This document shows positions 25,130 to 48,340 of a DNA stretch of 64,000 bases, one piece after another (position 1 is the stretch's first letter; every line of letters begins with the position of its first letter). The translations under genes were made by a program, and so were the position numbers. Where the stretch lies: the NCBI GenBank assembly GCA_944390975.1, contig CALXRX010000002.1, forward strand, positions 1 through 64,000, read 5' to 3'. Below the pieces are notes generated by a model. That model was not told the origin of the DNA. It saw only the letters and a list, made by a program, of their open reading frames with translations, and ran no database searches. The DNA comes from an uncultured Clostridia bacterium (GTDB taxonomy: Bacteria > Bacillota > Clostridia > TANB77 > CAG-508).

Positions 25130-25148
25130 AAGATATCCTCCTTTCTAT

Positions 25149-25223
25149 TCAAGGGGTTACCCTTCTACCACCTTAAGGGCAGTCAATGCTGCCGATTAAA
25201 GTACCAGGAGGCTAACTCCTTGA
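25149..25223 (-). other. Structured intergenic RNA candidate
   Basis: A 14-base outer stem pairs 25149-25162 with 25210-25223, with 12 of 14 pairs possible on the minus strand. It encloses a hairpin of GGCAG and CTGCC and the palindrome CCTTAAGG. The element spans the amidoligase stop codon and ends about ten bases before the ribosome site of the GGCT gene. It could be a cis-regulator of that gene. Confidence 0.45.
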
Positions 25224-26168: not shown

Positions 26169-26215
26169 CTTATTCACCTTTCTTTATATAAGATTTTCTC
26201 TTTTTGTTATGTATA

Positions 26216-26518: not shown

Positions 26519-26547
26519 TATATCACTCTAAAACACATATTTATCAA
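26519..26547 (-). promoter_or_regulatory. Phage promoter P3
   Basis: TTGATA (26547-26542) and GATATA (26524-26519) have a 17-base spacer, with flanks GACTTGATAAATAT and TTTTAGAGTGATATAT. The -35 overlaps the stop of the C5 methyltransferase gene. Confidence 0.65.
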
Positions 26548-29169: not shown

Positions 29170-29181
29170 TTTCTCCACCTC

Positions 29182-32937: not shown

Positions 32938-33199
32938 CGATTACACCTCCTATATCTTCTAAAGTGTCTAACACATATACACTGAATCCCAGTTCTTTTA
33001 ACTTCTTAATTCTTACAAGCTGGAGTTTTCTTGGTTTTTGTTTTGGTGCTTTCAACTCTACAAAAGCAACCCTACCTTTTGCCATTAGTACCAGCCTATC
33101 TGGAATACCATCTAATCCTGTTGATGCAAGTTTCAAACAAATGCCACCACACTTTTTAACTTCACTAACTAATTTTTGCTCTATATACTTTTCTCTCAT
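32918..33199 (-). CDS. VRR-NUC domain nuclease
   Basis: The protein has 93 residues, a minimal VRR-NUC fold: STGLDGIPDRLVLMAKGRVA followed by FVELKAPKQKPRKLQ supplies the PD...ExK catalytic motif. It probably acts on branched DNA or flaps during phage replication with the overlapping SNF2 helicase. GTAAGGA lies before the ATG. Confidence 0.92.
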   Translation of the reverse strand: MREKYIEQKLVSEVKKCGGICLKLASTGLDGIPDRLVLMAKGRVAFVELKAPKQKPRKLQLVRIKKLKELGFSVYVLDTLEDIGGVIDDIQTT

Positions 33200-33232
33200 T
33201 TTTCCTTACTCCCATCAGTCTTTTAAAGTGAT

Positions 33233-33331
33233 GGTGACGGTCGGTGACGGTCATTTCCATAACTTTTCTTATATATTAATTTTTTTAACTCTATAGAATA
33301 TTTATAGAAAAGACTGTCACCGAGTGTCACC
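33233..33331. other. Candidate phage replication origin (inverted GGTGAC repeats around an AT-rich core)
   Basis: A 20-base arm at 33233-33252, built from two direct repeats of GGTGACGGTC, is inverted at 33312-33331 with 17 of 20 matches. The 59 bases between are almost only A and T. A second pair, CAGTCTTTT (33217-33225) and AAAAGACTG (33308-33316), overlaps. The region lies directly downstream of the primase/helicase gene and upstream of the nuclease gene. Confidence 0.5.
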
Positions 33332-33334
33332 TTT

Positions 33335-35593
33335 TTAATTTTCTAGAAATTCTGATTTGAGTTTTAAGCCATAAATTAGCCTTGCTGTTTTTGTTTTTCT
33401 TCTTTGAAAACCAGCACTTTCAAGAGCAGTATAAAAATCAGTAGTACTTCTTATGTAGTCACCTACCCTCGAACAGTAGTCCCTATAGGCACTATAAACT
33501 TCTCCAGAATTTTCACTAAATGAATTATCAACTTCACAACATTCATCCAGGAATTGTGAAAACCAATCGTTGCTTTCTTTGTACTTATTAATTGCGTTTT
33601 CAACTACTGCTGGTTTAGTTAAGTGATACTTATTATCAATTACTCGTTTAGAACCTTCCATTATCCATTTAAGAATTACACCACCTGCATTTTCATATAA
33701 GTAGTCAGCATAATTCTTTATATCTGATGAACCATCAATTACTGCATTAAACGGAATAACTATAAGTCTTCTCCATGTTCCTTCATCAATTGCACCTACC
33801 TTTGGTAGATGATTTGTATAAAGTACTAAAGTATGAGTTGGTTCAAACTTAAAAGGTTCTTTATATTTTTTCTCGGCATAGATTTCATCGGTAGAACACA
33901 ACTGCTTTATATTAGAAGTATTAAACCTCATACCTTCTTCAAGTTCTGCTGCAATTACAAGTCGTTTTCCTTTTATCTCTGCCATCTCTGGTTTAACATT
34001 TCTCTTGCATCCAACAGTTAGAGTATCAGCTGACATATTGCCACTATAAGTACCTAGTATTTTGGAGATTGTATTCCAGAATGTAGACTTACCATTTCTA
34101 CCACCACCATAAGCAATAATAAGACCTTCAAGATGCACTTTACCTATTGCAGCAAGTCCTGCTACTTCTTGCACGTATCTTATTAAGTCCTTATCCTCAC
34201 AGAAGAATGTGTTTAGAGCATCATTCCATATCTCTTCTCCTTCATTAGATGGATCAAGTGTTGTTTGTTTTGTAATGTAATCTTCTGCTGAATGCTCATG
34301 CTTTTTATCAGTACCAAACCTTAAATCATATGTTGCTGTTGGTGTGTTCAATAAGAACTCATCACTATCTAATCTGTCCTGTTTGATTTCAACCATAGGA
34401 CTTGCCTCTTTTAATGATGCAAAAATATACTTGGAGTCTCTTCTTTTAATTGCATACTTCCTATAAGCTGTTACGTCTTCATAGTCTTTGAAAACTCTAG
34501 CTTGTTCTTCATTAAATAATCCAACTGCTTTTTTAGGGCCGACAGAAGATAAAATATCCCAAGCACCATTTTTAAGCATTACATCAGTTAGTTTTTTTAT
34601 TCCTACTTCCGCTTCTTCAAGTTGCCTTGTTGTTAGTTCCTGTGATATAGCTTGAGCTTTAGACTTTGACTCCTCCCAGTAACTTCCGTTATAAACAAGA
34701 AAGTCTGTCGATGGAGAATACTTTAATTTGTTCTCATACTCTTTTGCTAGTACAGTTGCCTGTCCTACATCTGAATAATCCAATGGTTCTAATAAGAAAT
34801 CTTGGTTGTATTGTTCTGGGTCAACATAGCCTTCTTGATTGGATAACTTCTTATAAAACTTTTTAGCACTATTCCAAATAGAAACTAATTCTTCATCTCC
34901 TAATGGTGGATCACAAAGAGCAGCTTTTTCCATAAACACTGCATATGCTTTTTCGGTGTCTCCATACTTCTTTATAACTCGACCAGCAAAATGAGATAAT
35001 GTGGAGTTACGACTACCTTCCTTAATTACCAAACTCTCTGGCATTTTATTCATTTCCATGTTTTCAAATTCATCAGAGTTTAAGTATTCGGTTAAATTAA
35101 TACTTCCTTGATAGATTTCAACTTCAGCCTCTTTTGTACCAAAGAAGAACCTTGCAGCATCAAGAGCATTTGTATCGAAGTATGGAAATATAGAATTAAC
35201 CCTTAATTTGATGTCTTTATATTTAGTTGCATCAGTTTCATAATCAATTGAAAATAAAACATGGAACTTTGGACGAGCACTTTTTCCGTTCTTTTCCTTG
35301 TTGTTTGACCTGCTGTAATGAATAGCAAATGAAACATCAGGAAATGCCTCTCTTATAATACTTGGTGTTATCCAATCTTCTGGATTATCAGAGTGGTCAT
35401 TATCACAATCAACAGGAAGACAATCACTTCCTATGAAATTGTCACCATTACGATAGCTGTTTTTATATTCAGCACATACATAATCATGACTAATAGCCTC
35501 TTTTAAGCTACCCTCATCAGTCACCAGTTTCTTATGAGGATAACTGCAGTTACTTGGAACTCCAGTAACATCTGAATAATAAATTGTAAACAT
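33335..35593 (-). CDS. D5/P4-type phage primase-helicase
   Basis: The protein has 752 residues. The N-terminal part (about 1-200) has the primase-polymerase-like segment GSDCLPVDCDNDHSDNP followed by RPKFHVLFSID. A primase C-terminal helical region follows (HFAGRVIKKYGDTEKAYAVF). The C-terminal half is an SF3/D5 helicase with Walker A AYGGGRNGKSTFWNTI near residue 495 and LVLYTNHLPKVGAIDEGTWR. It starts phage replication. AAAGGAGG precedes the ATG. Confidence 0.95.
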   Translation of the reverse strand: MFTIYYSDVTGVPSNCSYPHKKLVTDEGSLKEAISHDYVCAEYKNSYRNGDNFIGSDCLPVDCDNDHSDNPEDWITPSIIREAFPDVSFAIHYSRSNNKEKNGKSARPKFHVLFSIDYETDATKYKDIKLRVNSIFPYFDTNALDAARFFFGTKEAEVEIYQGSINLTEYLNSDEFENMEMNKMPESLVIKEGSRNSTLSHFAGRVIKKYGDTEKAYAVFMEKAALCDPPLGDEELVSIWNSAKKFYKKLSNQEGYVDPEQYNQDFLLEPLDYSDVGQATVLAKEYENKLKYSPSTDFLVYNGSYWEESKSKAQAISQELTTRQLEEAEVGIKKLTDVMLKNGAWDILSSVGPKKAVGLFNEEQARVFKDYEDVTAYRKYAIKRRDSKYIFASLKEASPMVEIKQDRLDSDEFLLNTPTATYDLRFGTDKKHEHSAEDYITKQTTLDPSNEGEEIWNDALNTFFCEDKDLIRYVQEVAGLAAIGKVHLEGLIIAYGGGRNGKSTFWNTISKILGTYSGNMSADTLTVGCKRNVKPEMAEIKGKRLVIAAELEEGMRFNTSNIKQLCSTDEIYAEKKYKEPFKFEPTHTLVLYTNHLPKVGAIDEGTWRRLIVIPFNAVIDGSSDIKNYADYLYENAGGVILKWIMEGSKRVIDNKYHLTKPAVVENAINKYKESNDWFSQFLDECCEVDNSFSENSGEVYSAYRDYCSRVGDYIRSTTDFYTALESAGFQRRKTKTARLIYGLKLKSEFLEN

Positions 35594-35597
35594 AGTT

Positions 35598-35993
35598 TTA
35601 ACTCTCCTCCTTTAAATCGTGATTGAAATACCTAATTGGCTTTTTTCTCTTCTTCGCAACAGATATTTCTCGTTTCATTCCTTCTGTAATGACATCACCA
35701 AAAACCCACACTTCTTTACAAAACCCTAAAAGAACATAGTTGATTTTGTGAATCGCAATGTTTCTTTCAAACAGGTCATCGTCATTTATGAATTGCGGGT
35801 ATAAAAGATGTGGTGTTATTGGTATGTTTTTCTTTTCAAATGTGAACCTACTATACTCTCTAGCCTTTCGAGTATTCTCCTCTATGTTTCCTCTATATGG
35901 AGAACATACATACACAAGTGGGTAGAACTCATCAGTTAGATTGAATTTATTTAGTAAATCTTTATAATCAAGAATCTCTCCGTCACTTGCCAT
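35598..35993 (-). CDS. DUF4406-like / nucleoside deoxyribosyltransferase-like protein
   Basis: The protein has 131 residues. The core PLVYVCSPYRGNIEENTRKA, a central HLLYPQFINDDDLFERNIAI, and CKEVWVFGDVITEGMKREIS match the phage DUF4406/nucleoside 2-deoxyribosyltransferase-like fold. It may act on modified nucleotides or bind them; the activity is unknown. The ATG at 35993 follows AAGGAGG by eight bases. The 19-bp element at 36035-36053 lies upstream. Confidence 0.8.
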   Translation of the reverse strand: MASDGEILDYKDLLNKFNLTDEFYPLVYVCSPYRGNIEENTRKAREYSRFTFEKKNIPITPHLLYPQFINDDDLFERNIAIHKINYVLLGFCKEVWVFGDVITEGMKREISVAKKRKKPIRYFNHDLKEES

Positions 35994-36034
35994 TATTCTT
36001 GCCTCCTTCCTTTGCACTTCAAGAGAAACACTTT

Positions 36035-36053
36035 CTCCTAAATAACAGTCAAA
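36035..36053 (-). repeat. 19-bp element, copy 2 (first at 5815-5833)
   Basis: TTTGACTGTTATTTAGGAG on the minus strand is identical to the copy before the HTH/zinc-finger gene. Here it lies about 40 bases upstream of the DUF4406-like start and is followed by a separate AAGGAGG. Confidence 0.6.
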
Positions 36054-36081
36054 GAAAAAAGGCTATATTTTAGCCTCTCAT

Positions 36082-38070
36082 TTAATCTTTTTTATAAAAT
36101 TCACATTCATACCCATCAGCTCTTAAAAGTAAGCCTTTAATCCAAGGAGGAGTTTCTCCCATTTGTTCACATACCTTTTCAAGCGACATCTCTTTACTAC
36201 ATTCAATTATCATTTCATCATGAACGTGTCCTACTATAAAGCAATAAGATAACCTCTGCATTGCATAACACAAGATGTCTCTACTAATGGCTTGTATGAT
36301 ATTTTCTACAAACTTTGGACCGTAGCTTTCTAATCGCTCCCACTTTTTAGTAGCACCTACACCTTCGTATGTTACACTTTCTGATCCATATTGATTAATT
36401 TTAATCTTAGGTTTTACATAGGCTAGTCTTCTACCACTTGGTAATTCAATAAAGAGCATCCCACTTTTATAAATGAACTTTAATCCATGAGTTTCAGTTT
36501 TAGTTCTATTTCTAACTGCAGTTTTTATTGCTTTATCTACTGCCCACCACATTTCCACGATGTGTGGATTTGCCTCTCTCCAGGATTTAACAAGAGGTTC
36601 TAATTCCTCTTCTTGAAGTCCCATATCAATGGCTCCCATTGCTTTCAAAGCTCCAACAGAGCCACCATAACCACAGGCAAGTTCTGCAATTTTTCCTTTT
36701 TGTCTTAGATGTCCATTTACACCATGTTTTTCAACTGGCACTTTAAACATAGCAGATGCTGACTGACAATAGATATCACCATTATTTGCAAATACCTCCA
36801 TTCTCCATTTTTCGTTTGCTAGGAATGATAGCACTCTAGCCTCAATTGCAGAAAAGTCTGCAACAATAAACTTCATACCTTTTCTTGGAACAAACGCTGT
36901 ACGGATAAGTTGAGATAAGGTATCTGGAACATCATATAAGGTTTCAAAAGCATTGTAGTCACCATACTTAACTAGTTCTCTTGCATCTTTTAAATCTTCT
37001 ATATGATTTTGTGGTAGGTTTTGTAATTGTATAATCCTTCCTGCCCATCTTCCAGTTCTATTAGCACCATAGAATTGAAACATACCTCTAGCACGATTAC
37101 ACCAGCACCCTGCATTCTTCATGGCTAGATATTTCTTAACAGATGATTTAGATATTTGTTGCCTTAGCTCTAAAACCTCAGCTATTTCTTTCGGTGCATC
37201 TTTTATCATTTCAGCCACTTGCTTTTTCCCAAGCGACTCTGCCTCAACTCCATTATTGTTGAGCCATTCTTTCATTTGCATGACCGAGTTTGGATTTTCT
37301 ATGTTGGTTAGGTTTTGTAGTTTTTCTGATGTTTCTTGCTTGGCTATTTCATCAAACTTTATAGCATTTTCTACAAGTTCCATATCAAGTCCAATTCCTC
37401 TATCATTTATTTCTTGATCCAAGTGATACTCATCCCATAAGAACTCTGGTACAGGATATCTTTGTAACCTTTCCTGGATAGATACTTCAACTTCAACATC
37501 TCGCTTATTATACTTTTTGAAAAGCTCCCATTTAGTCATATCATGCTCTGGTAGGTTCCTTGTTCTACCACCATTTGTTTTTGTTGGATTACAAGGAACA
37601 CAAAAGTACTTGATTAAATCTTTACCCTCTTTTAGTTTTTGTTCTTCTAATCCTAATACAGCACCAACTCCTGCAAGTGACAAAGGAAGTCCTAAATAAG
37701 CCGACCATATCATAGAACATCTCCAAGAACTAGGGCCTAAAAACTCATTAACTGTGTCTTCATCAATGCTGTAAGATATAAAGTATTCAGGATAATATCT
37801 TGATATATAGCGAGATAAACACACTCTTTCAAAGTTAGCATTATAAGCCCACTTGGTTACTTTATCATCAACAAGTGCTGATATTATTTCTAGTGGTATC
37901 TTTTCTCCTAAAGCTAAATCAACAACTTGTACCTCTTCATGATTTATGGAATATGCAAACAGTAGTATTTCAAATTTCTCTGATTCAGAGTATTTGTAGA
38001 CACCACACTTTGATAGGTCTATATCAGAAAATGTTTCTATATCAATAGAGATTGTTTTAATTTCTCTCAT
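36082..38070 (-). CDS. Phage family A DNA polymerase with 3'-5' exonuclease
   Basis: The protein has 662 residues. The N-terminus has exonuclease motif SIDIETFSDIDLSKCGVYKY. Polymerase motif A is FIVADFSAIEARVLSFLANE near residue 405, motif B RQKGKIAELACGYGGSVGAL near residue 455, and motif C VGHVHDEMIIE near residue 625. No 5' nuclease domain is present. It copies the phage genome. AGGAGGT precedes the ATG. Confidence 0.97.
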   Translation of the reverse strand: MREIKTISIDIETFSDIDLSKCGVYKYSESEKFEILLFAYSINHEEVQVVDLALGEKIPLEIISALVDDKVTKWAYNANFERVCLSRYISRYYPEYFISYSIDEDTVNEFLGPSSWRCSMIWSAYLGLPLSLAGVGAVLGLEEQKLKEGKDLIKYFCVPCNPTKTNGGRTRNLPEHDMTKWELFKKYNKRDVEVEVSIQERLQRYPVPEFLWDEYHLDQEINDRGIGLDMELVENAIKFDEIAKQETSEKLQNLTNIENPNSVMQMKEWLNNNGVEAESLGKKQVAEMIKDAPKEIAEVLELRQQISKSSVKKYLAMKNAGCWCNRARGMFQFYGANRTGRWAGRIIQLQNLPQNHIEDLKDARELVKYGDYNAFETLYDVPDTLSQLIRTAFVPRKGMKFIVADFSAIEARVLSFLANEKWRMEVFANNGDIYCQSASAMFKVPVEKHGVNGHLRQKGKIAELACGYGGSVGALKAMGAIDMGLQEEELEPLVKSWREANPHIVEMWWAVDKAIKTAVRNRTKTETHGLKFIYKSGMLFIELPSGRRLAYVKPKIKINQYGSESVTYEGVGATKKWERLESYGPKFVENIIQAISRDILCYAMQRLSYCFIVGHVHDEMIIECSKEMSLEKVCEQMGETPPWIKGLLLRADGYECEFYKKD

Positions 38071-38120
38071 TGCTTTACCTCCTATTAAGATAAAAGCGGT
38101 AGCTTTACTACCGCCTTATC

Positions 38121-38309
38121 TTATTTCATAAATTCTCTCATTCTTGCTTTGTGGTATTCTTCATCTCTTTTTTCTTGTTTAGCTCTTCTTTTTTCTGTGT
38201 TTACATCAGATGTTAATGAAAACAAAGAACTTAGAACAAAAAGGAACATTAGAGTAATAAACTCAATACCTACAATTACACAGAATATTGTTGATAAAAC
38301 GTTAATCAT
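38121..38309 (-). CDS. Small single-pass membrane protein
   Basis: The protein has 62 residues. Residues about 5-32 are strongly hydrophobic (VLSTIFCVIVGIEFITLMFL), followed by a charged cytoplasmic tail rich in K, R and E. Function is unknown; it is located between the DNA polymerase and the DUF2815 gene. A GGAGG lies before the ATG. Confidence 0.6.
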   Translation of the reverse strand: MINVLSTIFCVIVGIEFITLMFLFVLSSLFSLTSDVNTEKRRAKQEKRDEEYHKARMREFMK

Positions 38310-38321
38310 CTTTTTATCCTC

Positions 38322-38885
38322 CTATTCTAAAAAGTCATCTTCATCGCTAGTTGCGAAGTCGTCTTCAGCCCTTGATTTTCCACCAAGACTTTCTCCGTCT
38401 TTTATTTTTTGTAAGTTATTTAATCCGCAGGCAATACCTTTATTACCATTTGAATTAAATGCATATAAGTTAATACTTGCTCGTCCATATACTCCACTAT
38501 AAACTTCAGAGCGTTCTAAAATAGGTTGAAGAGCTGCATCTACGATGCCCGGTGCTTTTGGAGAATTTGCATTTATAAAGTAACATCCTTTATATGCCTC
38601 GTCATCTGGTCTTTCTAAATCTCCATCACGAAGTGGTGTCTTAATTGCTTGTAATGCTGGTACACTTTTTCCTGTTCCTTTTAATTTACTTTCTCCTTCT
38701 TTATATGCTACTTCAATCGCCTTTTTAATCTTCTCAACTGTTACTGTGTCAGTTTTTGGAATTATTAATGATACACTGTATTTTGGTGTTCCTCCATTGA
38801 TAGATTTTGGCTCCCAAACATTGCAGTAGCTCCATCTTGTATTTACTCCTGTTATTACTTTTGTCGAATTAAAACTATTATTCAT
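38322..38885 (-). CDS. DUF2815 phage single-strand DNA-binding-like protein
   Basis: The protein has 187 residues. Typical segments are KVITGVNTRWSYCNVWEPKS, KYSVSLIIPKTDTVTVEKIK and SGVYGRASINLYAFNSNGNK; the acidic C-terminus (DDFATSDEDDFLE) resembles SSB tails. DUF2815 proteins have an OB-like fold and accompany phage PolA and DUF2800 genes. The ATG at 38885 has GAGAGGAAA upstream and overlaps the DUF2800 gene by 8 bp. Confidence 0.9.
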   Translation of the reverse strand: MNNSFNSTKVITGVNTRWSYCNVWEPKSINGGTPKYSVSLIIPKTDTVTVEKIKKAIEVAYKEGESKLKGTGKSVPALQAIKTPLRDGDLERPDDEAYKGCYFINANSPKAPGIVDAALQPILERSEVYSGVYGRASINLYAFNSNGNKGIACGLNNLQKIKDGESLGGKSRAEDDFATSDEDDFLE

Positions 38886-40014
38886 AATTATTTTCCTCTC
38901 TTTCATCTTTAAAATCATTTATTTGCATGGCTGGTCTTTTATCACTCTCCAGTACGAGCGTTGGTTTGCCTTGAGGTTTATAAATTAGATTTCCTAATAC
39001 CTCATTAAATTTTGTTCTTCCTAGTAGGTTTGTCATTGCTGTGATTCCTAGAACTTTCTTTTCGTAAGGATCATATCCTGCATTTTTAACTGCTGTTGCT
39101 ACTTCTTCTTCATTTAAGTATTTTCGATTAGAACGTCCTTCAACCAGTTTCAAATTTGGATAATTCTTTCCAAGAAGGGCTTGATTTAAAGCATAATCTT
39201 TTACATCAGATACCCAAGATACCAAATCACTTGATTTAATAAGAATTGATGATATCTCTTCATCTGTTAATTCAGCAGGTTCTTCAAAATCATACTTTGC
39301 AAGTTCCATATTGTATTCAGCTCTCTTTCTACAAGTTGCTTTTATCTTGCAAAACTGACAGTGGTCTCCTGCTTTGAACTCGCCTTTTCCTTCGTAGGCA
39401 AGTTCTGCTATTGGCTTTAGTGTATTTTCTGCCCAACTATATAACTCTGTAACACTCATGTTTGAAACACTGATGTTTTCTATTCTTGGCTGATAAATCA
39501 CCATGCATACTTCTTCAATGTCATATAAGCTGTTAAATAGTTCTAGAGCTCCAATTGCATAGCACATCATTTGTGAATTATCTTCGCTCTCAACTTCTAC
39601 ACCTTTGCCATATTTAAAATCAATTATATAAAGTTTTTTGTCTGCTATGATTAAGCAATCTCCTGTTCCAAATCCCTCTGGAACAAATCTTGAAAAGTCT
39701 AGTCTTTGTTCTATTAAAACAAGTGGGTCTTTACAATAGCTCTTTGCCTCTTCTATAACTTCCATGACATAACTTGCATAATCATTAGCACATCTTTCCA
39801 TTTCTTCATTATAGTAAGATAAACTATCTGTTGGATCTTGCATTTTAATTCCTAGCATTGACTTAACTTTATACTCACAAAGTGTGTGTGCATCTGTACC
39901 TTCTTTAGCATATTCAGATGTTGTATCTTCTACCTCTGCACATAGCTTTGCTGAAGGAGGACAATTGAGCCATCTTTTACTACTAGATGCTGATAATATT
40001 GCATGACTGCTCAT
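38878..40014 (-). CDS. DUF2800 RecB/Cas4-like nuclease
   Basis: The protein has 378 residues with a PD-(D/E)XK fold: SSSKRWLNCPPSAKLCAEVE, the active-site stretch TGDCLIIADKKLYIIDFKYG near residues 115-135, and a cysteine cluster HCQFCKIKATCRKRAEYN that would hold an Fe-S cluster as in Cas4/AddB. It probably processes DNA ends with the neighbouring single-strand binding protein. It overlaps that gene by 8 bp. Confidence 0.9.
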   Translation of the reverse strand: MSSHAILSASSSKRWLNCPPSAKLCAEVEDTTSEYAKEGTDAHTLCEYKVKSMLGIKMQDPTDSLSYYNEEMERCANDYASYVMEVIEEAKSYCKDPLVLIEQRLDFSRFVPEGFGTGDCLIIADKKLYIIDFKYGKGVEVESEDNSQMMCYAIGALELFNSLYDIEEVCMVIYQPRIENISVSNMSVTELYSWAENTLKPIAELAYEGKGEFKAGDHCQFCKIKATCRKRAEYNMELAKYDFEEPAELTDEEISSILIKSSDLVSWVSDVKDYALNQALLGKNYPNLKLVEGRSNRKYLNEEEVATAVKNAGYDPYEKKVLGITAMTNLLGRTKFNEVLGNLIYKPQGKPTLVLESDKRPAMQINDFKDEREENNYE

Positions 40015-40015
40015 A

Positions 40016-40351
40016 TTAAATTCCCTCCGTTTCTTTCAACAACTCATCATACTTTGATGCGTCTAATTCAGATAATTTGTTAACTCCAAATTTAGTAAGT
40101 AACCCTTTTACTTCTGCTGTTTTACCTGCTCTAGATTTTTCTGCTAAAATTGCTCTTACTTCTTCTAAAGTTACAGACTTTTTATTTTCTTTAGGTTTTT
40201 CTGGAGAACTTGAAAAGGCTGATTCAATACTTCCTACAATGTCATTAATCGATGTTATAATGTCGCTTACTGTAGATAATATTTCACTTAACTTATTTGT
40301 ACTTTTTCTTAGTTCTTCTAGTTCTAAAGATAAATTATTCATCTTTGCCAT
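40016..40351 (-). CDS. Phage hypothetical protein with SAP-like C-terminus
   Basis: The protein has 111 residues. The N-terminal half is helical (possible coiled coil 5-45), then a proline/lysine linker. The C-terminal half (KSVTLEEVRAILAEKSRAGK, GLLTKFGVNKLSELDASKY) resembles small DNA-binding helices seen in many Clostridia phages in this position. The protein is often mislabelled rRNA biogenesis protein. Function is unknown. GGAAGGAGG precedes the ATG. Confidence 0.65.
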   Translation of the reverse strand: MAKMNNLSLELEELRKSTNKLSEILSTVSDIITSINDIVGSIESAFSSSPEKPKENKKSVTLEEVRAILAEKSRAGKTAEVKGLLTKFGVNKLSELDASKYDELLKETEGI

Positions 40352-40553
40352 CGGTACTTCCTCCTTCCTTTATTTCTTTGACATCAACGGATTGTACTGA
40401 CTGACCAGGGTCTAATAAAAATACTTGTCTATAATCTCCAAATAGAAATTTGATGATTTTCTGTGGCAAAGTTAATTGACCACCTCGCAGTATTTTCACA
40501 TTGTTGCCATTCTCATCAGTTACGTTGATTGTGACCTTATGCTTTATAGCCAT
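40335..40553 (-). CDS. Small phage hypothetical protein
   Basis: The protein has 72 residues, beta-rich (HKVTINVTDENGNNVKILRG), with an acidic tail; family not recognised. It overlaps the next gene by 17 bp and starts after GGGAGG. It is the second gene of the early operon, after the sigma-like gene; a hairpin at 40572-40601 lies between them. Confidence 0.6.
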   Translation of the reverse strand: MAIKHKVTINVTDENGNNVKILRGGQLTLPQKIIKFLFGDYRQVFLLDPGQSVQSVDVKEIKEGGSTDGKDE

Positions 40554-40571
40554 CCTCTTGAGCCTCCCTTC

Positions 40572-40601
40572 GTATTTGTAAGTCCATTGCCTTACAAGTA
40601 C
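40572..40601 (-). other. Hairpin between the sigma-like gene and the next early gene
   Basis: TTGTAAG (40576-40582) and CTTACAA (40591-40597) pair, extended by GTA/TAC. There is no T tract, so it is more likely a processing or translation element than a terminator. Confidence 0.4.
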
Positions 40602-40625
40602 TAGGCAAAGAATTTTTTATCTTTT

Positions 40626-41162
40626 TTAACCTCTCTTGAAATTTTCTTTTATAAACTTCAAAATTTTTTCCTTGTGCTTATGAACACTCGGTATAGAAGT
40701 TCCCATAATTGCGGCTACTTCAGTAAGTGAATAACCTTCTAGAAAATGAAGTTCATATACTCTTTGTTGTTTTTCAGTCATCATTGAAACAACTTCTCTT
40801 AACCTATCTACTTCATCAGATGTATCTTCTACAGCAGTCGTATTATCTGCAAGATAGATACACTTGTCCTGATTTCCTTCCTCATCAAAGATTGAATCAA
40901 TAGATAAGTTCCATATCTCTTGATATTTTTCGCCTGGGTGTTTTTCTTCCCAATCCTTAATATCTTGTTTTTCTTTTTCAGATATAGGTCTATGCCAATT
41001 CTTATGGTTGTAATAAACCTCTGAATCATCTAAAGAATGTAATTTTTTGATGAACTCCTCTGTTACTCCTTCCTCTCCTGGTTTAATTGTGATTTTAGTT
41101 CCATCGTCAAAGATGTAGGTATAAGTACCCCTGTTTTCTTGTTTTGTTTTATGACTTTTCAT
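40626..41162 (-). CDS. Sigma-70 region 4-like early regulator
   Basis: The protein has 178 residues. The C-terminal part (MTEKQQRVYELHFLEGYSLT, EVAAIMGTSIPSVHKHKEKI) is a sigma-70 region 4 HTH. The N-terminal 100 residues are acidic and of unknown fold. It is the first protein gene of the phage early operon. It has GGGAGG eight bases before its ATG, and its ATG directly follows the TAA of a leader ORF. It may direct RNA polymerase to phage promoters. Confidence 0.75.
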   Translation of the reverse strand: MKSHKTKQENRGTYTYIFDDGTKITIKPGEEGVTEEFIKKLHSLDDSEVYYNHKNWHRPISEKEKQDIKDWEEKHPGEKYQEIWNLSIDSIFDEEGNQDKCIYLADNTTAVEDTSDEVDRLREVVSMMTEKQQRVYELHFLEGYSLTEVAAIMGTSIPSVHKHKEKILKFIKENFKRG

Positions 41163-41294
41163 TTAAAAGTCCTCCCTTCCTTTTGCCTGTTTCGGTGCAG
41201 AAGGAAAGGAAAAAAGAGTCCGTGCTTTTTTAGTACACGGACTCCTACTACCTGATTTAGGGTGCAATAAAGAGAGGGTACTAAAAATAGGCAT
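41163..41294 (-). CDS. 43-codon leader peptide of the early operon
   Basis: An ATG at 41294 preceded by AAAGG opens a frame of 43 codons (begins MPIFSTLSLLHPKSG) that runs through the terminator hairpin at 41210-41244 and ends with TAA directly against the ATG of the sigma-like gene. Its last codons contain the ribosome site of that gene. The arrangement is typical of translation-dependent attenuation. It is too short for normal gene calling, and the peptide has no family I recognise. Confidence 0.5.
   Translation of the reverse strand: MPIFSTLSLLHPKSGSRSPCTKKARTLFSFPSAPKQAKGREDF
41210..41244 (-). terminator. Intrinsic terminator inside the early-operon leader
   Basis: GAGTCCGTG (41216-41224) and CACGGACTC (41236-41244) form a perfect 9-bp stem followed on the minus strand by six T residues. 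It lies upstream of every early gene, so it must be bypassed for early expression. Confidence 0.75.
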
Positions 41295-41356
41295 TTTTAC
41301 CTTTACGGTATTAAATAGCTTTTATTCGTATCCTTCTGCCCTATTGCAAACTCAGG
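41251..41356 (-). promoter_or_regulatory. Structured leader RNA upstream of the early operon
   Basis: On the minus strand CCTGA pairs with TCAGG (41356-41352 with 41255-41251), GCAATA with TATTGC (41347-41342 with 41269-41264), and TACC with GGTA in a small hairpin at 41298-41310 that overlaps the leader-ORF ribosome site. The intrinsic terminator comes directly after. It is an attenuator or riboswitch candidate of no class I recognise. Confidence 0.5.
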
Positions 41357-41412
41357 CATCAAAACATTAAATTTATAAAAAGCAAAAAGTTATTCGTTTT
41401 TGTATTTTTTTT

Positions 41413-41445
41413 ATGCAATTGCATATTTTTTTTATGCAAAAGCAT
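41413..41445. promoter_or_regulatory. Tandem palindromic operator (two 12-bp sites, 21 bp apart)
   Basis: ATGCAATTGCAT (41413-41424) is a perfect palindrome; ATGCAAAAGCAT (41434-41445) shares the ATGC...GCAT arms. Their centres are 21 bp apart, two helical turns, each preceded by a run of T. They lie between divergent operons and touch the -35 region of the plus-strand promoter. Confidence 0.6.
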
Positions 41446-41473
41446 GGTTTTCTTCATAATTTTCTGATATAAT
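41445..41473 (+). promoter_or_regulatory. Candidate promoter of the five-gene operon
   Basis: TATAAT lies at 41468-41473. The -35 position holds TGGTTT, a weak match, 17 bases upstream. It points toward the gene at 41628, giving a leader of about 150 bases with a doubled GGGTAGTC near 41570-41587. Weak -35 boxes next to operators suit activator or repressor control. Confidence 0.4.
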
Positions 41474-41627
41474 ATTTTCATCAATTTAAAAATCATATCG
41501 TGCTATCTATGAAGTTATTACTTCTGCTTTTTACACTTAAGATTTTAACAGCTTTGCTATAAAATCTCGGGTAGTCATGGGTAGTCTTCGGGATGTTTCG
41601 GTAATACAAGAAATGAGGAGATAATTA

Positions 41628-42449
41628 ATGACTTTTTCAAATTTCGCTAAATTACTAAAACCAATCATTGGTGGTTCAGATAACACAGTTGAATTTACTA
41701 GGAAACTCTTTATAGCTATGATTGGAGAAGATAACTCTACAGTAATTGAAAATAAATCAGATGATAGTTTTAAAGCCTATTACAATGGAAGATCAACAAT
41801 AAATGGAATAGCTAGAGAAATATCTCCTGTTGCTGACCTAGAGAACTTTGTATCTTTCCTTGATAATTTTGGAGACTCAGTTTCAGAGAAACTTTGTGAT
41901 GCTTTTTCAGGAAGTATTGATGAAATAGACCTACAAAATATTAATTACAAAATAGCTAGTTGCTTTGATGAAATCATAAAAAAAGCAGCAGCTACTCAGA
42001 GGAAAAGCTCATCTAATAAAGATGAACCACTTAATATTCCCGTTGAGCAGACTGCTGCTAGTTTCCCTTATACAGAAACTGATAATGAATTGCTTACTGA
42101 ATTTAATTCAGATTATGAGGAAATCATGCTTACTTTAATTAGAGGAGACTATGCATCCTATTTAGTAGACATGAGTATTCCTAACAAAATTAAAAAGTTA
42201 TATCAAGAAAAATGGAAAGAAAAATCTAATGATTTTGTAAATCCAATGCTAAAATCAGATGTATTTGGAATTTTAGGTGTTCTTGATGAATTAAGTACAA
42301 GTTTCATTTCATGTAACTTAAATACAAGTGTAATCAAAAGTCAAAGAATAAAAATAAGAAATTTATATGTTAAACTTCATCCAGAAAAATATGACAAAAA
42401 CATCCCATATGATATTTTGTTAGATGATTGGAATGATAGTGAATTTTAG
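41628..42449 (+). CDS. Unknown protein, first gene of the helicase/RM operon
   Basis: The protein has 273 residues, soluble and mainly helical. I recognise no named domain. Residues about 50-115 (FKAYYNGRSTINGIAREISP, ADLENFVSFLDNFGDSVSEK) followed by an IASCFDEIIKKAA helix form a compact helical module. I recall similar sequences beside ATPases and nucleases in gut Firmicutes, but I cannot verify this. A charged linker (residues 120-145) leads to a second helical domain ending in VKLHPEKYDKN. GAGGAG precedes the ATG. It ends 15 bp before the helicase gene, so the two probably work together. Confidence 0.6.
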   Translation: MTFSNFAKLLKPIIGGSDNTVEFTRKLFIAMIGEDNSTVIENKSDDSFKAYYNGRSTINGIAREISPVADLENFVSFLDNFGDSVSEKLCDAFSGSIDEIDLQNINYKIASCFDEIIKKAAATQRKSSSNKDEPLNIPVEQTAASFPYTETDNELLTEFNSDYEEIMLTLIRGDYASYLVDMSIPNKIKKLYQEKWKEKSNDFVNPMLKSDVFGILGVLDELSTSFISCNLNTSVIKSQRIKIRNLYVKLHPEKYDKNIPYDILLDDWNDSEF

Positions 42450-42464
42450 AAAGGATGATAATAA

Positions 42465-45224
42465 ATGCCAACAATTGATAATTCTATAAAAAGAATAGAT
42501 AGTGTTATATGTAGACACTTAGATGAAATCGAAGACTCTTCTCGTGGTGCAATTTCACAAGATATATTAGAGCAACTAATAAAATTCATTAATCATGTAA
42601 TGCTAAAATTTTATGCCAATGGCAAAGAAATCGACATCAACGAAGAAAACTTAACTAAAGCAATCGAATATTGCCAAATAAATAGCGACCTATATACCCT
42701 ATATAAGTTTCGTAACTATTTGCAAGTTGTCACTACACAATACACTTTAGACGAAGATGGATCAGAACGATTAATGTTAAAGTATTATCAGTACTTACTA
42801 GAAACAAAAAATCTTCTTAGCCAGCATTTTGGTATTGAGGTACTGCATAATTTAGATAAATTCCCTTTACATCTAGATGATACCTTACAGGAATACTATA
42901 AAAAAATTGCGGAGAAAATAGAACGTCATCCTACATCATTACACGCAGATAGTAAAGATAAATATTATATCCAAAAAATCAAACCTCTATTTGTAGATAG
43001 AAAGATATATTATGAAGTTACATTTACTCCAATTGATGACAGGAAAAATAAATCTAAGACAAACAGAGTTATTGCTTTTACAAAACTCCCAGTCAAAAGT
43101 AACTACGCATCTAAATTTCACCTTATAAATGAAACTATCGAAATTTTAGGCAAAACCATGCCTATTATAGTTATTGATGGTTGGGAAGTTTCTATAAGAG
43201 ATTGCGAATTTCAAAATTTCATATCAATAATAAATGGAGACAAAATAAAAGTAGGTTATCCAGAACAGCGATTAATTTGTGAATTTCTTACTAAAACAAA
43301 ATACACCTTAAATAACCTAATAGACTTCCCAGATTCTGCATATAATGATATTACTAATAGATGGAAAAGTAGCCTAAAAAATCCTATATTTATTCCAACA
43401 TTAGATTATTGCAGAAACTTAATATTAAGCGGCAAGAACGGAAAAAACATTCTAAGATACCTACTATATAATATGAATAACGTCATAATAAAAAGTCAAT
43501 ATTCATCAGGGTATTATAGTAAATATTATGAGGAATGGATTAAAGCTGGTAACGGTCATCTATCTAACTTATATTTAGATATTGGTAGTAAGCCATTTGA
43601 TGATTTACCATTTAACCGCTCTCCTCTTGGACATAATCCAAAATTATCTGCAATATTTGAGTGCATTCCTTGTAATGGTAATCGTCATGAATTATTTGCA
43701 AGATTTATAGAAAATAATACAGAAGGCAAAGGACAATTATTCACTGATATTAGTGAATTGACTAATTACCCAGATTATCAGGAACTTATAAAAACATATA
43801 ATGAAAATCTTTACTCAGGGCATAGACCTGAGGGCGATATAATGCTAGAACATAATCAAGTATTTATAAATGATTATAAACTAGACACTTGTACCATAAT
43901 TGAAAAATTACAAGAATTAGCTGAGTCAGGTATAGAAAACTACAGCACTGATGTTGATGTATGGCTACTCTTTGATGGCTATGAAATAGATTGTGATGAA
44001 AAGAAAGGTATTATTAGACAGATATTTTCCGATTCAAAAGTTGGTGTAATATACGGCTCTGCTGGTGTAGGAAAATCCACATTAATAAACCACGTTTCAC
44101 ACTATTTAAACGATGCCCCTAAATTATACTTAACTCAAACAAATCCAGCAAAAGAAAACTTAATTAGAAAAATTGATGCAGAAAATACTACATTTTCTAC
44201 AATTGAAAGCTTTAAGCACCAAACTACCTCAATGGATTATAAATTGTTAGTTATTGATGAATGTAGTACTGTTAGTAATAAAGATATGGTTGAGATACTT
44301 CAAAAAGCAAACTTTGAAATGCTTTTATTAGTCGGAGATACTTATCAAATTGATGCAATACAATTTGGAAACTGGTTCTCAGTACTAAAGGCATTCTTAC
44401 CTGATACTGCTGTTTTTGAACTTAAAAAACCTCATAGAACAAAAAACAAACAACTGCTAGAGCTTTGGGATAAAGTTAGATGCATGGATGATACAGCTAA
44501 GGAAGTAATTGAAAGAGAAAGTTATTCTCTAAAAGTAGATGAGTCATTACTTTCCTCACTTGAACCTGACGAGGCTATTTTATGTCTTAATTACGATGGA
44601 CTATATGGTATAAATAATATTAACAGGTTTTTACAAGAAAGTAATCCAAACCCAGCAGTTACTTGGGATGTTCAACAATATAAAGTTGGTGATCCTATAC
44701 TATTTCTTGATTCAGATAGATTCAGACCAGTCATATACAACAATTTGAAAGGAATAATCCGAGATGTTAAAATCATGGATGTAGATACTCCTAATGAACG
44801 CATCCGATTTGATGTTGAAATTCCTAAATTAGTATATGAAAGAGATACGTATGGTACAGGTCTTGACCTTCTTGAAAACAATGAAGAAGAAGAAACATCT
44901 CTTATAAGATTTTATGTATATAAACTTAAAAGTGCTGATGAAGAAGGAGAAGATTTTAGAACTATAGTTCCGTTTCAAGTTGCTTATGCAGTTTCAATAC
45001 ATAAAGCTCAGGGATTAGAGTTTGAATCCGTCAAAATAGTAGTAACTGATGAAGTTGAGGAATTAGTAACGCATAACGTTTTCTATACTGCTATAACAAG
45101 AGCAAGAGAAAAACTAAAAATCTACTGGACACCAGAAGTAGAAGAAAAAGTTATAAATAGAATTAAACCTAGGGACATAAGTAAAGATGTTGAAATTTTA
45201 AAAAACTATATTGATAAAAAGTAA
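42465..45224 (+). CDS. Large protein with unknown N-terminal half and SF1 (RecD-like) helicase
   Basis: The protein has 919 residues. Residues 1-525 match no family I know. From 531 a superfamily 1 helicase begins: Walker A GSAGVGKST (531-539), Walker B VIDECSTVSN near 597, motif III LVGDTYQIDAIQ near 622, an insert with a small barrel (residues 735-840), and motifs V and VI as VSIHKAQGLEFESVKIVV and YTAITRAREKLKIYW. The C-terminal arrangement is that of RecD2/UvrD-C proteins. AAAGGATG precedes the ATG. The following gene is 13 bp away. Confidence 0.85.
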   Translation: MPTIDNSIKRIDSVICRHLDEIEDSSRGAISQDILEQLIKFINHVMLKFYANGKEIDINEENLTKAIEYCQINSDLYTLYKFRNYLQVVTTQYTLDEDGSERLMLKYYQYLLETKNLLSQHFGIEVLHNLDKFPLHLDDTLQEYYKKIAEKIERHPTSLHADSKDKYYIQKIKPLFVDRKIYYEVTFTPIDDRKNKSKTNRVIAFTKLPVKSNYASKFHLINETIEILGKTMPIIVIDGWEVSIRDCEFQNFISIINGDKIKVGYPEQRLICEFLTKTKYTLNNLIDFPDSAYNDITNRWKSSLKNPIFIPTLDYCRNLILSGKNGKNILRYLLYNMNNVIIKSQYSSGYYSKYYEEWIKAGNGHLSNLYLDIGSKPFDDLPFNRSPLGHNPKLSAIFECIPCNGNRHELFARFIENNTEGKGQLFTDISELTNYPDYQELIKTYNENLYSGHRPEGDIMLEHNQVFINDYKLDTCTIIEKLQELAESGIENYSTDVDVWLLFDGYEIDCDEKKGIIRQIFSDSKVGVIYGSAGVGKSTLINHVSHYLNDAPKLYLTQTNPAKENLIRKIDAENTTFSTIESFKHQTTSMDYKLLVIDECSTVSNKDMVEILQKANFEMLLLVGDTYQIDAIQFGNWFSVLKAFLPDTAVFELKKPHRTKNKQLLELWDKVRCMDDTAKEVIERESYSLKVDESLLSSLEPDEAILCLNYDGLYGINNINRFLQESNPNPAVTWDVQQYKVGDPILFLDSDRFRPVIYNNLKGIIRDVKIMDVDTPNERIRFDVEIPKLVYERDTYGTGLDLLENNEEEETSLIRFYVYKLKSADEEGEDFRTIVPFQVAYAVSIHKAQGLEFESVKIVVTDEVEELVTHNVFYTAITRAREKLKIYWTPEVEEKVINRIKPRDISKDVEILKNYIDKK

Positions 45225-45236
45225 GGAGGTTAATTT

Positions 45237-45473
45237 ATGCATATTAGTTATAACAAATTATGGAAATTATTAATTGATAAAGGAATGAATAAGCAGGATT
45301 TAGGAAAAATTGCAAACATTAGTCCTGCGTCTATAGCAAAACTCGGAAAAGGTGCAAATGTGACCACAGATGTTCTTCTAAAAATATGTGAAGCATTAGA
45401 ATGCAATCTTGAAGATATAATAGAAACCGTAAAAAATGAAGGAGATGAACAAAATGAGTACTCAATTAAATAG
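45237..45473 (+). CDS. Small Xre regulator, C-protein-like
   Basis: The protein has 78 residues with one HTH: YNKLWKLLIDKGMNKQDLGK, NISPASIAKLGKGANVTTDV, LLKICEALECNLEDIIE. Small Xre proteins overlapping the restriction gene are the control (C) proteins of several type II systems. Here the gene overlaps the next one by 20 bp. AAGGAGG precedes the ATG. It probably tunes expression of the restriction and methylase genes; the palindromes at 41413-41445 and at 46420-46429 are candidate sites. Confidence 0.85.
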   Translation: MHISYNKLWKLLIDKGMNKQDLGKIANISPASIAKLGKGANVTTDVLLKICEALECNLEDIIETVKNEGDEQNEYSIK

Positions 45474-46374
45474 CAATATCAAATTTGTAGGGACAAACCC
45501 TATTATTAATTCAAAAGCATCAGAGACATATGTTTCTGTAATTTTCACTTACAACTCAAAAACATGGAAAGGATATGTTCCAATTGAATATCGAAGAACA
45601 GGAGTATCAATTGACTTTGATGACAAGGATAAATTATATCAACACCTTAATCAAGTATATGATGATATGAACCCATCAAAATTTGATGCTTGGAAAGCAG
45701 AACAAGAACTTTTTTGGGCTAGTAAACCAAATGCAGATACAACCAAAGCATTCTTTGATAAATTAGTGGAAGGTGGATGGAAATGTGGTGCTTGTGAAAT
45801 GCCACGTAATCCTAATCCTCAAAGAAGAATTCAAGATTTAAAAGAATTTGGATATACTATTGCTACTGATTTAGCCCATTACTGTCCAAACTGTAATAGA
45901 AATACAAGTCAAAGGATTTTACTTCCTATTCCACGTGGTGGAAATACAGGAAATGGTTATGAAACCTGGTCACCAGCCCTTAGAAAACGAATCATTAGTA
46001 TTCTTGACAATTTTGATGTCTATGAATGTGTTACTACCCCACACTGTTTACCTGATCATAAATTTTCAGAGATAAGATGGGATGATAATACAAAAGCAGA
46101 AAATCCAGATACCATGACTGATGATGAAATCAGACAAAAATTCCAATTGATGACTAACCAAAGAAATCAACAAAAAAGAGAAGTTTGTAGAAACTGCTTT
46201 CAAACTGGAAAAAGAGGTCAAATTTACGGAATACCATTCTTCTATGCAGGTGGTCCATATTGGGATAATAACATTCCGCAAAAAGGAAAAGAAGCTGAAA
46301 AAGGATGCATCGGATGTCCTTGGTATGATATAGCTGAATGGAGAAAAAATCTCCTTGATAAAATAGATAAATAA
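45454..46374 (+). CDS. Candidate type II restriction endonuclease, HNH-type, zinc-binding
   Basis: The protein has 306 residues. Cysteine pairs CGAC (111-114) and CPNC (144-147) frame RNPNPQRRIQDLKEFGYTIA, a stretch typical of HNH restriction enzymes that read short sites. Further on come DHKFSEIRW (201-209), the NQRNQQKREVCRNC block (235-248) and GCIGCPWYDI near 284, giving a His...Asn metal centre and zinc ligands. The call comes from motif memory and from the neighbouring C5 methyltransferase; no match was run. The ATG at 45454 has AAGGAG nine bases upstream; earlier ATGs lie inside that site. Confidence 0.65.
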   Translation: MSTQLNSNIKFVGTNPIINSKASETYVSVIFTYNSKTWKGYVPIEYRRTGVSIDFDDKDKLYQHLNQVYDDMNPSKFDAWKAEQELFWASKPNADTTKAFFDKLVEGGWKCGACEMPRNPNPQRRIQDLKEFGYTIATDLAHYCPNCNRNTSQRILLPIPRGGNTGNGYETWSPALRKRIISILDNFDVYECVTTPHCLPDHKFSEIRWDDNTKAENPDTMTDDEIRQKFQLMTNQRNQQKREVCRNCFQTGKRGQIYGIPFFYAGGPYWDNNIPQKGKEAEKGCIGCPWYDIAEWRKNLLDKIDK

Positions 46375-46390
46375 AATAATGCTAAATATT

Positions 46391-46431
46391 TCTTGATATC
46401 ACTTGATATTACTTGAATAGTTAGCTAACAT
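46391..46431 (+). promoter_or_regulatory. Methyltransferase promoter with three 10-bp repeats and a palindrome
   Basis: TCTTGATATC, ACTTGATATT and ACTTGAATAG follow each other with an exact 10-bp period (46391-46420). GTTAGCTAAC (46420-46429) is a perfect palindrome overlapping a TAACAT -10 box; TTGATA lies 17 bases upstream. This suggests separate, regulated expression of the methyltransferase. Confidence 0.5.
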
Positions 46432-46458
46432 ATATAAAAATGAAAGGAGCAAATACTA

Positions 46459-47889
46459 ATGGATATAAAAAGTATTGGTAGCATTTGTTCTGGTATTGAG
46501 GCTGCATCTGTAGCATGGAAACCTCTAAAAGTAGAATTTGATTGGTTCTCTGAAATTGCAGATTTTCCATCTATGGTTTTAGCTAGTAAATATCCAGATG
46601 TCCCAAATTTAGGAGATATGAATGATATACCAAATAAAATAATAAATAAAGAAATTACAGCACCTGATTTAATTTGTGGCGGAACACCATGCCAAGCATT
46701 TTCTTTCGCTGGTAATCAAAATGGTCTTAATGATGATAGAGGAAATTTAACTCTAAAATTTGTAGATATTATTAATGCAAATGATAAAATTAGAATTGAA
46801 AATGGTCAAAAAAGAACAGTTGTATTCTGGGAAAATGTTGAAGGTGTGCTTACAGATAAAACAAACGCTTTTGGATGCTTAGTATCATCACTTGCAGGAC
46901 TTGACAGTCCGATAGAAAAGAAAAGATGGGCATCTTCTGGTTTTTTAAGTGGTCCTACAAGAAATGTGGCTTGGAGAGTCCTTGATGCAAAGTTCTTTGG
47001 ACTACCTCAGCAAAGAAAAAGATTATATGTTCTTGCTGGAGATAAAGACTTCCATCCAGAGGATGTGTTATTTGAAAAAAGCACTAAAAAATTACAGGAT
47101 TTTCCTGATTGTGAATTAACATTTGAAAAAGAAGGACATCGATTTGAAGTTTTTAGAGGATATACTGACTGCTTATATGCTGCATACGGAACAAAATGGA
47201 ATGGTAATGCCGCAGCCTTAAATGGTTCATTATTTGTAGTACAGGATGATAGAATAAGACGTTTATCACCTCTTGAAACTGAACGTTTGATGGGATTTCC
47301 AGATAATTATACTGATTTACCTAGAGCAAGAAAAACTAATAGATATCAAGCAACTGGAAACTCATGGGCAGTTCCTGTTGTTAAATGGCTAGGAAAACGA
47401 ATAATTGATTCTAAACTGCCTACTTTAAATCTTGATCCTGTTGAATTGTATAAACAAGGATTAGCTGAAAAAATAAATGATTCTACATATTTAATGCTAT
47501 TTGGAAAAGATATTGTCACTATTAATAATGACTTAAAAATAAATGGAACATCAACTCCAGAAAATTGTACTTTTGGAAATATGAAAGATATTGTATCACC
47601 TGACGCTCCAGAAGATATTTATATTTCCCCAGTAGGATGTTTTGGAATAGTTAGAAGAAAACGAGAACGCAATTTGAAAATCAATTCACGTCTTGAAGAA
47701 GTATTGCTTTCTATTTCTTCTAATATGTCTCCAGAAGAAATAGAAAAAAGGTCTAGAGTTCAAAAGCGTGGAAAATTTAGTGACATATCTAATGACGATG
47801 ATTCATCAAATAATGACTCAAGTGATGATGAAGATGCATCAAATAACAATGTTCAAGTATCAATTTTTGATTTAGCAACTAATGAGTAA
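46459..47889 (+). CDS. DNA C5-cytosine methyltransferase with acidic tail and clamp-like peptide
   Basis: The protein has 476 residues. Motif I is SICSGIEAASVAW, IV GGTPCQAFSFAGNQNGLNDD with the catalytic cysteine, VI FWENVEGVL, VIII QQRKRLYVLAG, IX LSPLETERLMGFPDNY, X YQATGNSWAVPVV. After motif X it has about 155 extra residues: a folded part (to about 435), a serine/aspartate/asparagine-rich acidic linker, and the end QVSIFDLATNE. QVSIF fits the bacterial sliding-clamp binding consensus. It probably methylates the site cut by the adjacent nuclease. AAAGGAG precedes the ATG. Confidence 0.93.
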   Translation: MDIKSIGSICSGIEAASVAWKPLKVEFDWFSEIADFPSMVLASKYPDVPNLGDMNDIPNKIINKEITAPDLICGGTPCQAFSFAGNQNGLNDDRGNLTLKFVDIINANDKIRIENGQKRTVVFWENVEGVLTDKTNAFGCLVSSLAGLDSPIEKKRWASSGFLSGPTRNVAWRVLDAKFFGLPQQRKRLYVLAGDKDFHPEDVLFEKSTKKLQDFPDCELTFEKEGHRFEVFRGYTDCLYAAYGTKWNGNAAALNGSLFVVQDDRIRRLSPLETERLMGFPDNYTDLPRARKTNRYQATGNSWAVPVVKWLGKRIIDSKLPTLNLDPVELYKQGLAEKINDSTYLMLFGKDIVTINNDLKINGTSTPENCTFGNMKDIVSPDAPEDIYISPVGCFGIVRRKRERNLKINSRLEEVLLSISSNMSPEEIEKRSRVQKRGKFSDISNDDDSSNNDSSDDEDASNNNVQVSIFDLATNE

Positions 47890-47935: not shown

Positions 47936-48052
47936 ATTGCCTTTAATTAACATACAATCCTTTTATTATTAAATTACAAATTTGAGCTTAACATATAAAA
48001 ATTTCGCTATTAAATTATAATGCCTCAATTCTTGCTTTCTTTAAATCCGGGC

Positions 48053-48099
48053 ATAAAAAAAAGAGCCTTTCCTAAATCAATTAAAATTTAGAAAAGGCT
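48053..48099 (-). terminator. Terminator of the 48-51 kb minus-strand genes
   Basis: On the minus strand AGCCTTTTCTAAAT pairs with ATTTAGGAAAGGCT (one mismatch) and is followed by CTTTTTTTT. It overlaps the stop of the gene at 48098. Between it and the previous terminator (47936-48052) I see nothing coding; the prophage right end may lie here. Confidence 0.8.
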
Positions 48100-48340
48100 A
48101 TATTTCCTTTGAAATCAAAGGTTTTCTTTCAAATATCCCGCTTATTCTTTGTATCATATTTGGAGTTGTTTGGTCTAAGTAAAATATATTTAATTCTTCT
48201 TGATTGATATTTAGATTTGCATATTCAGAATTATTTGTTTCTGTATGTACATTATTATTTTGTAATAAAATTGCAATTATAATTATTATAAAAAATATTA
48301 AAAATACTAATATTTGACTTGCTAGTTTTTTCTTATTCAA
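48098..48340 (-). CDS. Small membrane-anchored hypothetical protein
   Basis: The protein has 80 residues. Residues 7-26 (ASQILVFLIFFIIIIIAILL) form one membrane anchor; the rest is polar and extracellular. It starts with TTG at 48340, six bases after AAGGAG. No family recognised. It is the last gene before the terminator on this strand. Confidence 0.55.
   Translation of the reverse strand: MNKKKLASQILVFLIFFIIIIIAILLQNNNVHTETNNSEYANLNINQEELNIFYLDQTTPNMIQRISGIFERKPLISKEI

Follow-up and report, generated by a model that had tools for sequence, protein, structure and literature searches.

A helicase gene, a small upstream partner, a regulator and a restriction-modification (RM) pair lie in one run at the right end of a prophage in a gut Clostridia genome. 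The question this locus raises is whether the five genes form a single defence system, or whether a conserved core has come to lie beside exchangeable RM genes. The window is the whole stretch of DNA analysed, 64,000 nucleotides in length; L-numbers denote related loci.

The five-gene locus and its prophage

All five ORFs are open, tightly packed and on the same strand, as the preliminary description had noted, and the 919-aa helicase ORF spans 42465-45224. Their order is not due to chance, since the homologues of the first three genes keep it in isolated phages and many prophages. The features are as follows.

41413..41447, no strand: two adjacent palindrome-like boxes, ATGCAATTGCAT and ATGCAAAAGCAT, upstream of orf1; candidate Xre operator
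41628..42449, + strand: orf1, 273 aa, N domain and C domain
42465..43574, + strand: N-terminal region of the helicase, aa 1-370 (AF2 model, pTM 0.82)
43575..45224, + strand: RecD-type SF1 part of the 919-aa PDC-S53 protein (PADLOC PDC-S53; RecD2 3gpl)
45237..45473, + strand: xre, 78 aa, Cro/C1-type (HTH_26) regulator (PF13443, 4.8e-19)
45434, no strand: recombination seam, where identity to the L044, L045 and L046 prophages stops; the RM genes past it are unrelated
45454..46374, + strand: R candidate, 306 aa, with an IceA-like HNH-type nuclease C-terminus (PF05315 ICEA; PADLOC REase_II)
46459..47889, + strand: M, 476-aa C5-cytosine DNA methyltransferase (PF00145)
47948..48191, no strand: prophage end, where identity with related prophages returns; comEC-like gene in the relatives

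The locus had been placed in or beside a prophage, and it is indeed prophage-borne, with about 13 kb matching related prophages. The cassette occupies the right end of the prophage and is encoded on the other strand from the phage replication/recombination block; its upstream neighbour encodes a sigma-70 region 4 protein. Region 47948-48191 adjoins or forms the 3' end of comEC in L045 and L046 (PF03772 Competence host genes). Because identity with the three related prophages is regained here, the prophage appears to be inserted in comEC-like host genes with the cassette as its last cargo. A recombination-site search yielded no repeat that the left end of the contig shares with the right end of the prophage, and matches in a promoter scan did not rise above the level of shuffled sequence.

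The prophage carries further genes. At its integrase end, opposite to the cassette, are three tandem large serine recombinase genes (937-5162), and a Mutator-family (IS256-like) transposase (PF00872, 7011-8240) lies beside the lysis genes. An amidoligase (PF12224) adjoins a gamma-glutamylcyclotransferase-like gene (PF06094) at 24656-26177 and the two may form a peptide-ligation pair. A C5 methyltransferase (MTase), a ParB-N6/N4 MTase and a SAM-synthetase-like gene follow one another at 26547-29964 and are distinct from the right-end RM genes.

The helicase and its two-domain partner

The PADLOC profile PDC-S53 gives a full-length match to the 919-aa protein (1213 bits, residues 1-917). PDC stands for phage defence candidate (PMC11514479), and a literature search of partial coverage found no paper on PDC-S53. 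The protein also matches PHROG_325, annotated as a 'Dda-like helicase'. Its helicase motifs are intact (GSAGVGKST at 531, DECS at 598, GDTYQ at 624, IHKAQG at 845 and FYTAITRA at 873), and in the AF2 model residues 371-918 align with RecD2 (3gpl, Z 22.2). Structure matches mostly cover residues 403-915, and residues 1-370 were barely probed by those searches. The preliminary description had split the protein into a 525-aa unknown N-terminus and a RecD-like SF1 helicase; the helicase assignment holds, but the unknown part shrinks to about 370 aa, with the RecD2 fold beginning at residue 371. The protein thus has a fold in common with RecD2 and RecD, to which it adds a 370-aa N-terminus. A housekeeping RecD2 variant, named earlier as the identity to check, is rejected at 95.5 bits against the TIGR01448 equivalog cutoff of 500.

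One scan of genome contigs confirmed 557 PDC-S53 relatives from many phyla. The helicase is carried by about 2% of the sampled genomes of the class (8/391) and was matched in only 3 of 50,697 phage records. Two phages that have been isolated, phi1605 of Erysipelothrix and TPDSL_ph1 of Terrisporobacter, encode the same core (helicases 81% and 78% identical) together with yet other RM genes. In a quick tree with SH-aLRT support only, a single supported clade holds the orf1-bearing helicases, which make up 31 of its 32 rows, and the Xre-bearing ones lie in a 23-row subclade of it. In L056, the row that differs, the place of orf1 is taken by an unrelated gene of 257 aa. This single clade bears out the earlier proposal that the first two genes form a module.

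Helicases outside the orf1 clade are mostly solo genes on chromosomes or plasmids, and a few are found within RM operons. L112 (5646-15887) has a PDC-S53 helicase inside a type I operon, in the order hsdM-hsdS-helicase-hsdR, and L075 (3988-12694) has one directly behind type I genes, hsdR-hsdM-hsdS-helicase. A general RM link of the helicases that lack orf1 was considered and dropped, as an operon-linked MTase accompanied 7/73 of them versus 19/158 other genes on the same islands.

Orf1 comprises an N domain (aa 1-122, 41628-41993) and a C domain (aa 148-273, 42069-42449). Its AF2 model shows two all-helical domains, residues 1-122 (pLDDT 85-96) and 150-270. A match to the PADLOC LmuA profile PDLC03857 (3.6e-14) covers residues 1-156 and the N-terminal half of the profile, and the C half of Orf1 does not match it. 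Pfam and NCBIfam profile searches returned nothing for Orf1, its fold had no significant counterpart in the PDB (the listed structures are helical bundles with Z < 8.5), and BFVD gave uncharacterised phage proteins only. The protein that had been called unknown is thus not entirely so, its N domain being LmuA-like. This domain contains no recognised catalytic motif and has no significant PDB fold match; the missing motif leaves room for a pure adaptor role.

The C domain was seen solely alongside a PDC-S53-type helicase. Compared with the window, members of the main clade are about 50% identical in the C domain, mostly 30-48% in the N domain and 69-82% in the helicase. Two groups, L025/L027 and L032/L039/L058-L062, retain the C domain but have an N domain that differs in sequence and is missed by the profile. 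Across the helicase clade, the N domain is thus replaced by two other types next to a constant C domain. Judged by sequence, Orf1 is a modular protein.

The N domain also heads other cassettes. One type consists of the N domain with a short tail, a protein of about 216 aa and an AAA_13 protein (~760 aa). Another has the N domain joined to CTD11, followed by a ~75-aa protein and a ~550-aa ABC ATPase (ABC-3C). The domain furthermore occurs in a genuine LmuA-LmuC-LmuB trio and, in additional cassettes, is fused to NACHT-SNaCT14. Behind almost all of these non-helicase cassettes stand an Xre of the same family and, after it, RM genes, with an MTase in 16/18, a sample drawn largely through an Xre search. 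A search of 381 class-level genomes that used the N domain alone gave six loci besides the window. Xre was present at 6/6, and an MTase lay just past it in all four loci with enough flank (L243, L244, L245 and L248). N-domain proteins related to Orf1 weakly match HamA1 (about 1e-4), and the AAA_13 versions weakly match PrrC.

Two side observations concern these cassettes. In L184, L186, L194 and L198, an N domain-NACHT fusion of 797-840 aa (PF05729 and SNaCT14 in L194) precedes the same Xre at ~8000, past which are clustered genes that include a Vsr-like ORF and a C5 MTase. In L011 (10001-11226) and L182 (4466-5688), short motifs that look matching, QQINVIQNGEKNFNLTNNGTMNFNF and NVAVSNQPGATVNFTYNI, are found C-terminally in the N-domain protein and N-terminally in the protein encoded next; the pair resembles self-assembly (amyloid-signalling-like) motifs.

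A conserved core and exchangeable RM genes

The fourth protein, described earlier as a Cys-rich HNH-type nuclease candidate, has five Cys pairs and matches PF05315 ICEA (28.3 bits, gathering threshold 24) and PADLOC REase_II (82.6 bits, 8.9e-24). Its ICEA/REase_II C-terminus makes HNH-type nuclease a fair reading of its sequence, and a comparison with solved structures gave no meaningful match. We prefer the start at ATG 45454 (306 aa) to the 312-aa ORF: AAGGAG lies just 5' of it, and the L240 homologue, 75% identical, begins at the matching residue. R then overlaps xre by 20 nt. The fifth gene begins 84 bp past the end of R and, as expected of a C5 methyltransferase, matches PF00145 (137 bits, 1.2e-39) with GGTPCQ and ENVEG motifs.

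A small HTH gene overlapping an endonuclease gene next to a C5 MTase resembles a controlled type II (C.R-M) system, and the locus had been described as including one. The overlap and the adjoining M are real, but the regulator does not go with them. The window is 95-98% identical to L044, L045 and L046 across the matching 13 kb (32463-45434), and this identity ends at the 3' end of xre. Beyond the seam lie a 465-aa ORF and three N6/N4-type genes in L044 and L046, and a 387-aa ORF and a different C5 MTase in L045. The xre gene remains 97% identical in all three, where R and M are replaced. The R gene of the window is absent from other cassettes and sits with a different Xre in L240. A C protein travelling with R and M is therefore rejected, as is a fixed five-gene system coupled to type II RM, which the preliminary description had proposed. 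The conserved core consists of orf1, the helicase gene and xre, and the RM genes behind it are exchangeable cargo. In wider relatives, the slot holds MspI-like (L053; weakly L029), SinI-like (L054), HNH (L070) and other nucleases, often accompanied by a Nudix protein or an HhH-GPD glycosylase.

The regulator follows the helicase in the 23-row subclade and also stands behind other N-domain cassettes. It goes with the helicase core and not with the R and M pair, so the apparent overlap of a C gene with R more probably marks the junction of core and cargo. The RM repressor RptR, reported recently, is a non-Xre protein, unlike the regulator here (PMC12255303). Box ATGCAAAAGCAT upstream of orf1 is mostly retained in three close relatives, and box ATGCAATTGCAT is degenerate in L045. 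Upstream of the wider cassette set the palindrome boxes occur in 1/36, so that they are kept among the closest relatives only. An MTase is also present at 19/25 Xre loci in which no N domain was recognised, so the link to RM extends to the entire Xre family. In seven loci (L209-L212, L214, L219 and L229), an unrecognised two-gene module (about 440-460 aa and 870 aa) stands before xre (~8000) and RM genes.

MTases were called with a C5 profile built for this analysis and an N6/N4 motif. Distinct orf1-helicase-xre cassettes were included if they had 4 kb or more of downstream sequence, and MTases were counted up to 6 kb downstream. An MTase was found downstream of 14/15 cassettes (C5 in 11/15) and upstream of 0/21. 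Helicases without orf1 had one in 6/53 (C5 in 2/53; Fisher p = 4e-9 for MTase and 6e-8 for C5), p-values that overstate independence because near relatives may have a common history, in a homology-based sample with cut contigs. The association with RM genes proposed earlier thus holds, at a frequency well above expectation, though not for the R gene of the window.

These counts bear on a rather unlikely alternative, in which a cargo slot of Clostridia prophages gathers a helicase system and an RM system that act independently and have only the regulator in common. Prophage ends are common cargo sites, the exact RM genes vary freely, and orf1 cassettes without Xre but with enough flank have an MTase nearby in only 4/9, all of which would suit such a co-location. 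The one-sided placement of the MTase, downstream and not upstream, and an order that is identical across four unrelated NTPase types speak against it.

Proposed function and comparison with known systems

PADLOC lists PDC-S53 as a single-gene defence candidate; the protein here matches that profile in full length, but an invariant partner and a regulator accompany it, and RM genes follow as cargo. Orf1 links the locus to Lamassu and ABC-3C. Its N domain corresponds in sequence to that of LmuA PDLC03857, and the protein may have the same layout of an N-terminal effector and a C-terminal docking domain. LmuA-type proteins have variable N-terminal effectors, and their C-terminal domains are possibly docking stations (PMC10586767). 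Unlike Lamassu, the five-gene locus has neither an SMC-like LmuB nor LmuC, and its sole NTPase is the SF1 helicase. Hachiman also pairs a helicase sensor with a small partner, which the helicase holds back and activates upon DNA damage (PMC12278908); the locus here would have a comparable two-component arrangement. Hachiman uses an SF2/Hel308-like helicase as HamB and a DUF1837 nuclease as HamA, whereas the helicase here is a RecD-type SF1 protein, and profile searches with Orf1 gave no DUF1837/Pfam and no HamA match. No GajA of Gabija is present among the five proteins, and the match of the helicase to GajB is weak (27 bits).

We tentatively favour, at slightly less than an even chance, a composite prophage defence cassette in which Orf1 and the helicase combine a sensor of damage or DNA ends with an effector or adaptor, next to an Xre-linked slot for an exchangeable RM system. 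Orf1 and the helicase would form a two-component complex, the C domain docking on the helicase as the C-terminal domains of LmuA are thought to dock on their ATPase. The LmuA-type N domain would be the effector or an adaptor that recruits one. The helicase could load on DNA ends or damage arising from RM cutting of phage DNA or from phage replication, and its ATPase activity would then free or activate Orf1, comparable to HamB acting on HamA. Xre may hold expression of the operon low. The RM enzyme would serve as the first line and the helicase pair as the second, working on RM products.

This composite cassette draws on the LmuA-type N domain, the constant C domain, the single helicase clade and the RecD2 fold. 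It is also consistent with the downstream MTase counts, the RM swap, the varied endonuclease types in the slot, the Xre and MTase at the N-domain-only loci, and the Hachiman and Lamassu precedents. Against it, the N domain may not be an effector, given that it has neither a catalytic motif nor a PDB fold, and the MTase linkage of solo helicases (7/73) does not exceed the background of 19/158. We know of no NACHT protein that senses DNA ends, which counts against the DNA-end reading.

A further alternative, which we consider unlikely, is that the helicase pair guards the RM system. It would stay inactive while RM is intact, and inhibition or removal of RM by a phage would make it set off abortive infection. 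PrrC in EcoprrI and PARIS offer the precedent, as defence genes that stand beside RM or sense its inhibition, and both respond to RM inhibition (PMC12707154). Like PrrC, the core is encoded with an RM system, as an MTase lies behind 14/15 cassettes, but its product is a helicase and not an anticodon nuclease. The core's constant position beside very different RM types, the PrrC-like solo helicases (one inside and one right after type I genes) and the weak PrrC match of the AAA_13 versions would fit such a guard. However, the slot holds RM proteins of different types that have no sequence relationship, for which a common docking surface is implausible unless the cue is indirect, such as the state of the DNA, and solo helicases are no more RM-linked than their local background.

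A Dda/RecD-like helicase serving phage replication, recombination or counter-defence is very improbable: the PHROG_325 annotation and the core in phi1605 and TPDSL_ph1 would suit it, but the cassette has its own regulator and runs opposite to the early/replication genes, phage records rarely match it (3/50,697), its relatives are mostly chromosomal or plasmid-borne in many phyla, and PADLOC lists it as a defence candidate.

Returning to the composite cassette, a broader version of it is possible though somewhat doubtful. Here, in Clostridia prophages, one family of helical N domains of ~125 aa and one Xre family would connect any of four NTPase sensors (the RecD-like SF1 helicase, SMC-like LmuB/ABC-3C, AAA_13 and NACHT) to any adjoining RM system, and the cue would be restriction breaks or RM failure. 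Helicase-partner defence and an RM-linked second line are already known as individual ideas. The combination of a RecD-like helicase, an LmuA-type partner and exchangeable RM is undescribed as far as the partial coverage of the literature shows, and searches of that literature gave no account of such a platform.

With its hundreds of relatives, the defence candidate PDC-S53 gains a partner and a context. If the proposal is right, PDC-S53, some Lamassu, ABC-3C, AAA_13/PDC-S06 and some bNACHT systems would have a common adaptor or effector domain and a regulatory link to RM, and the layering of restriction and abortive infection, an old question, would become directly testable.
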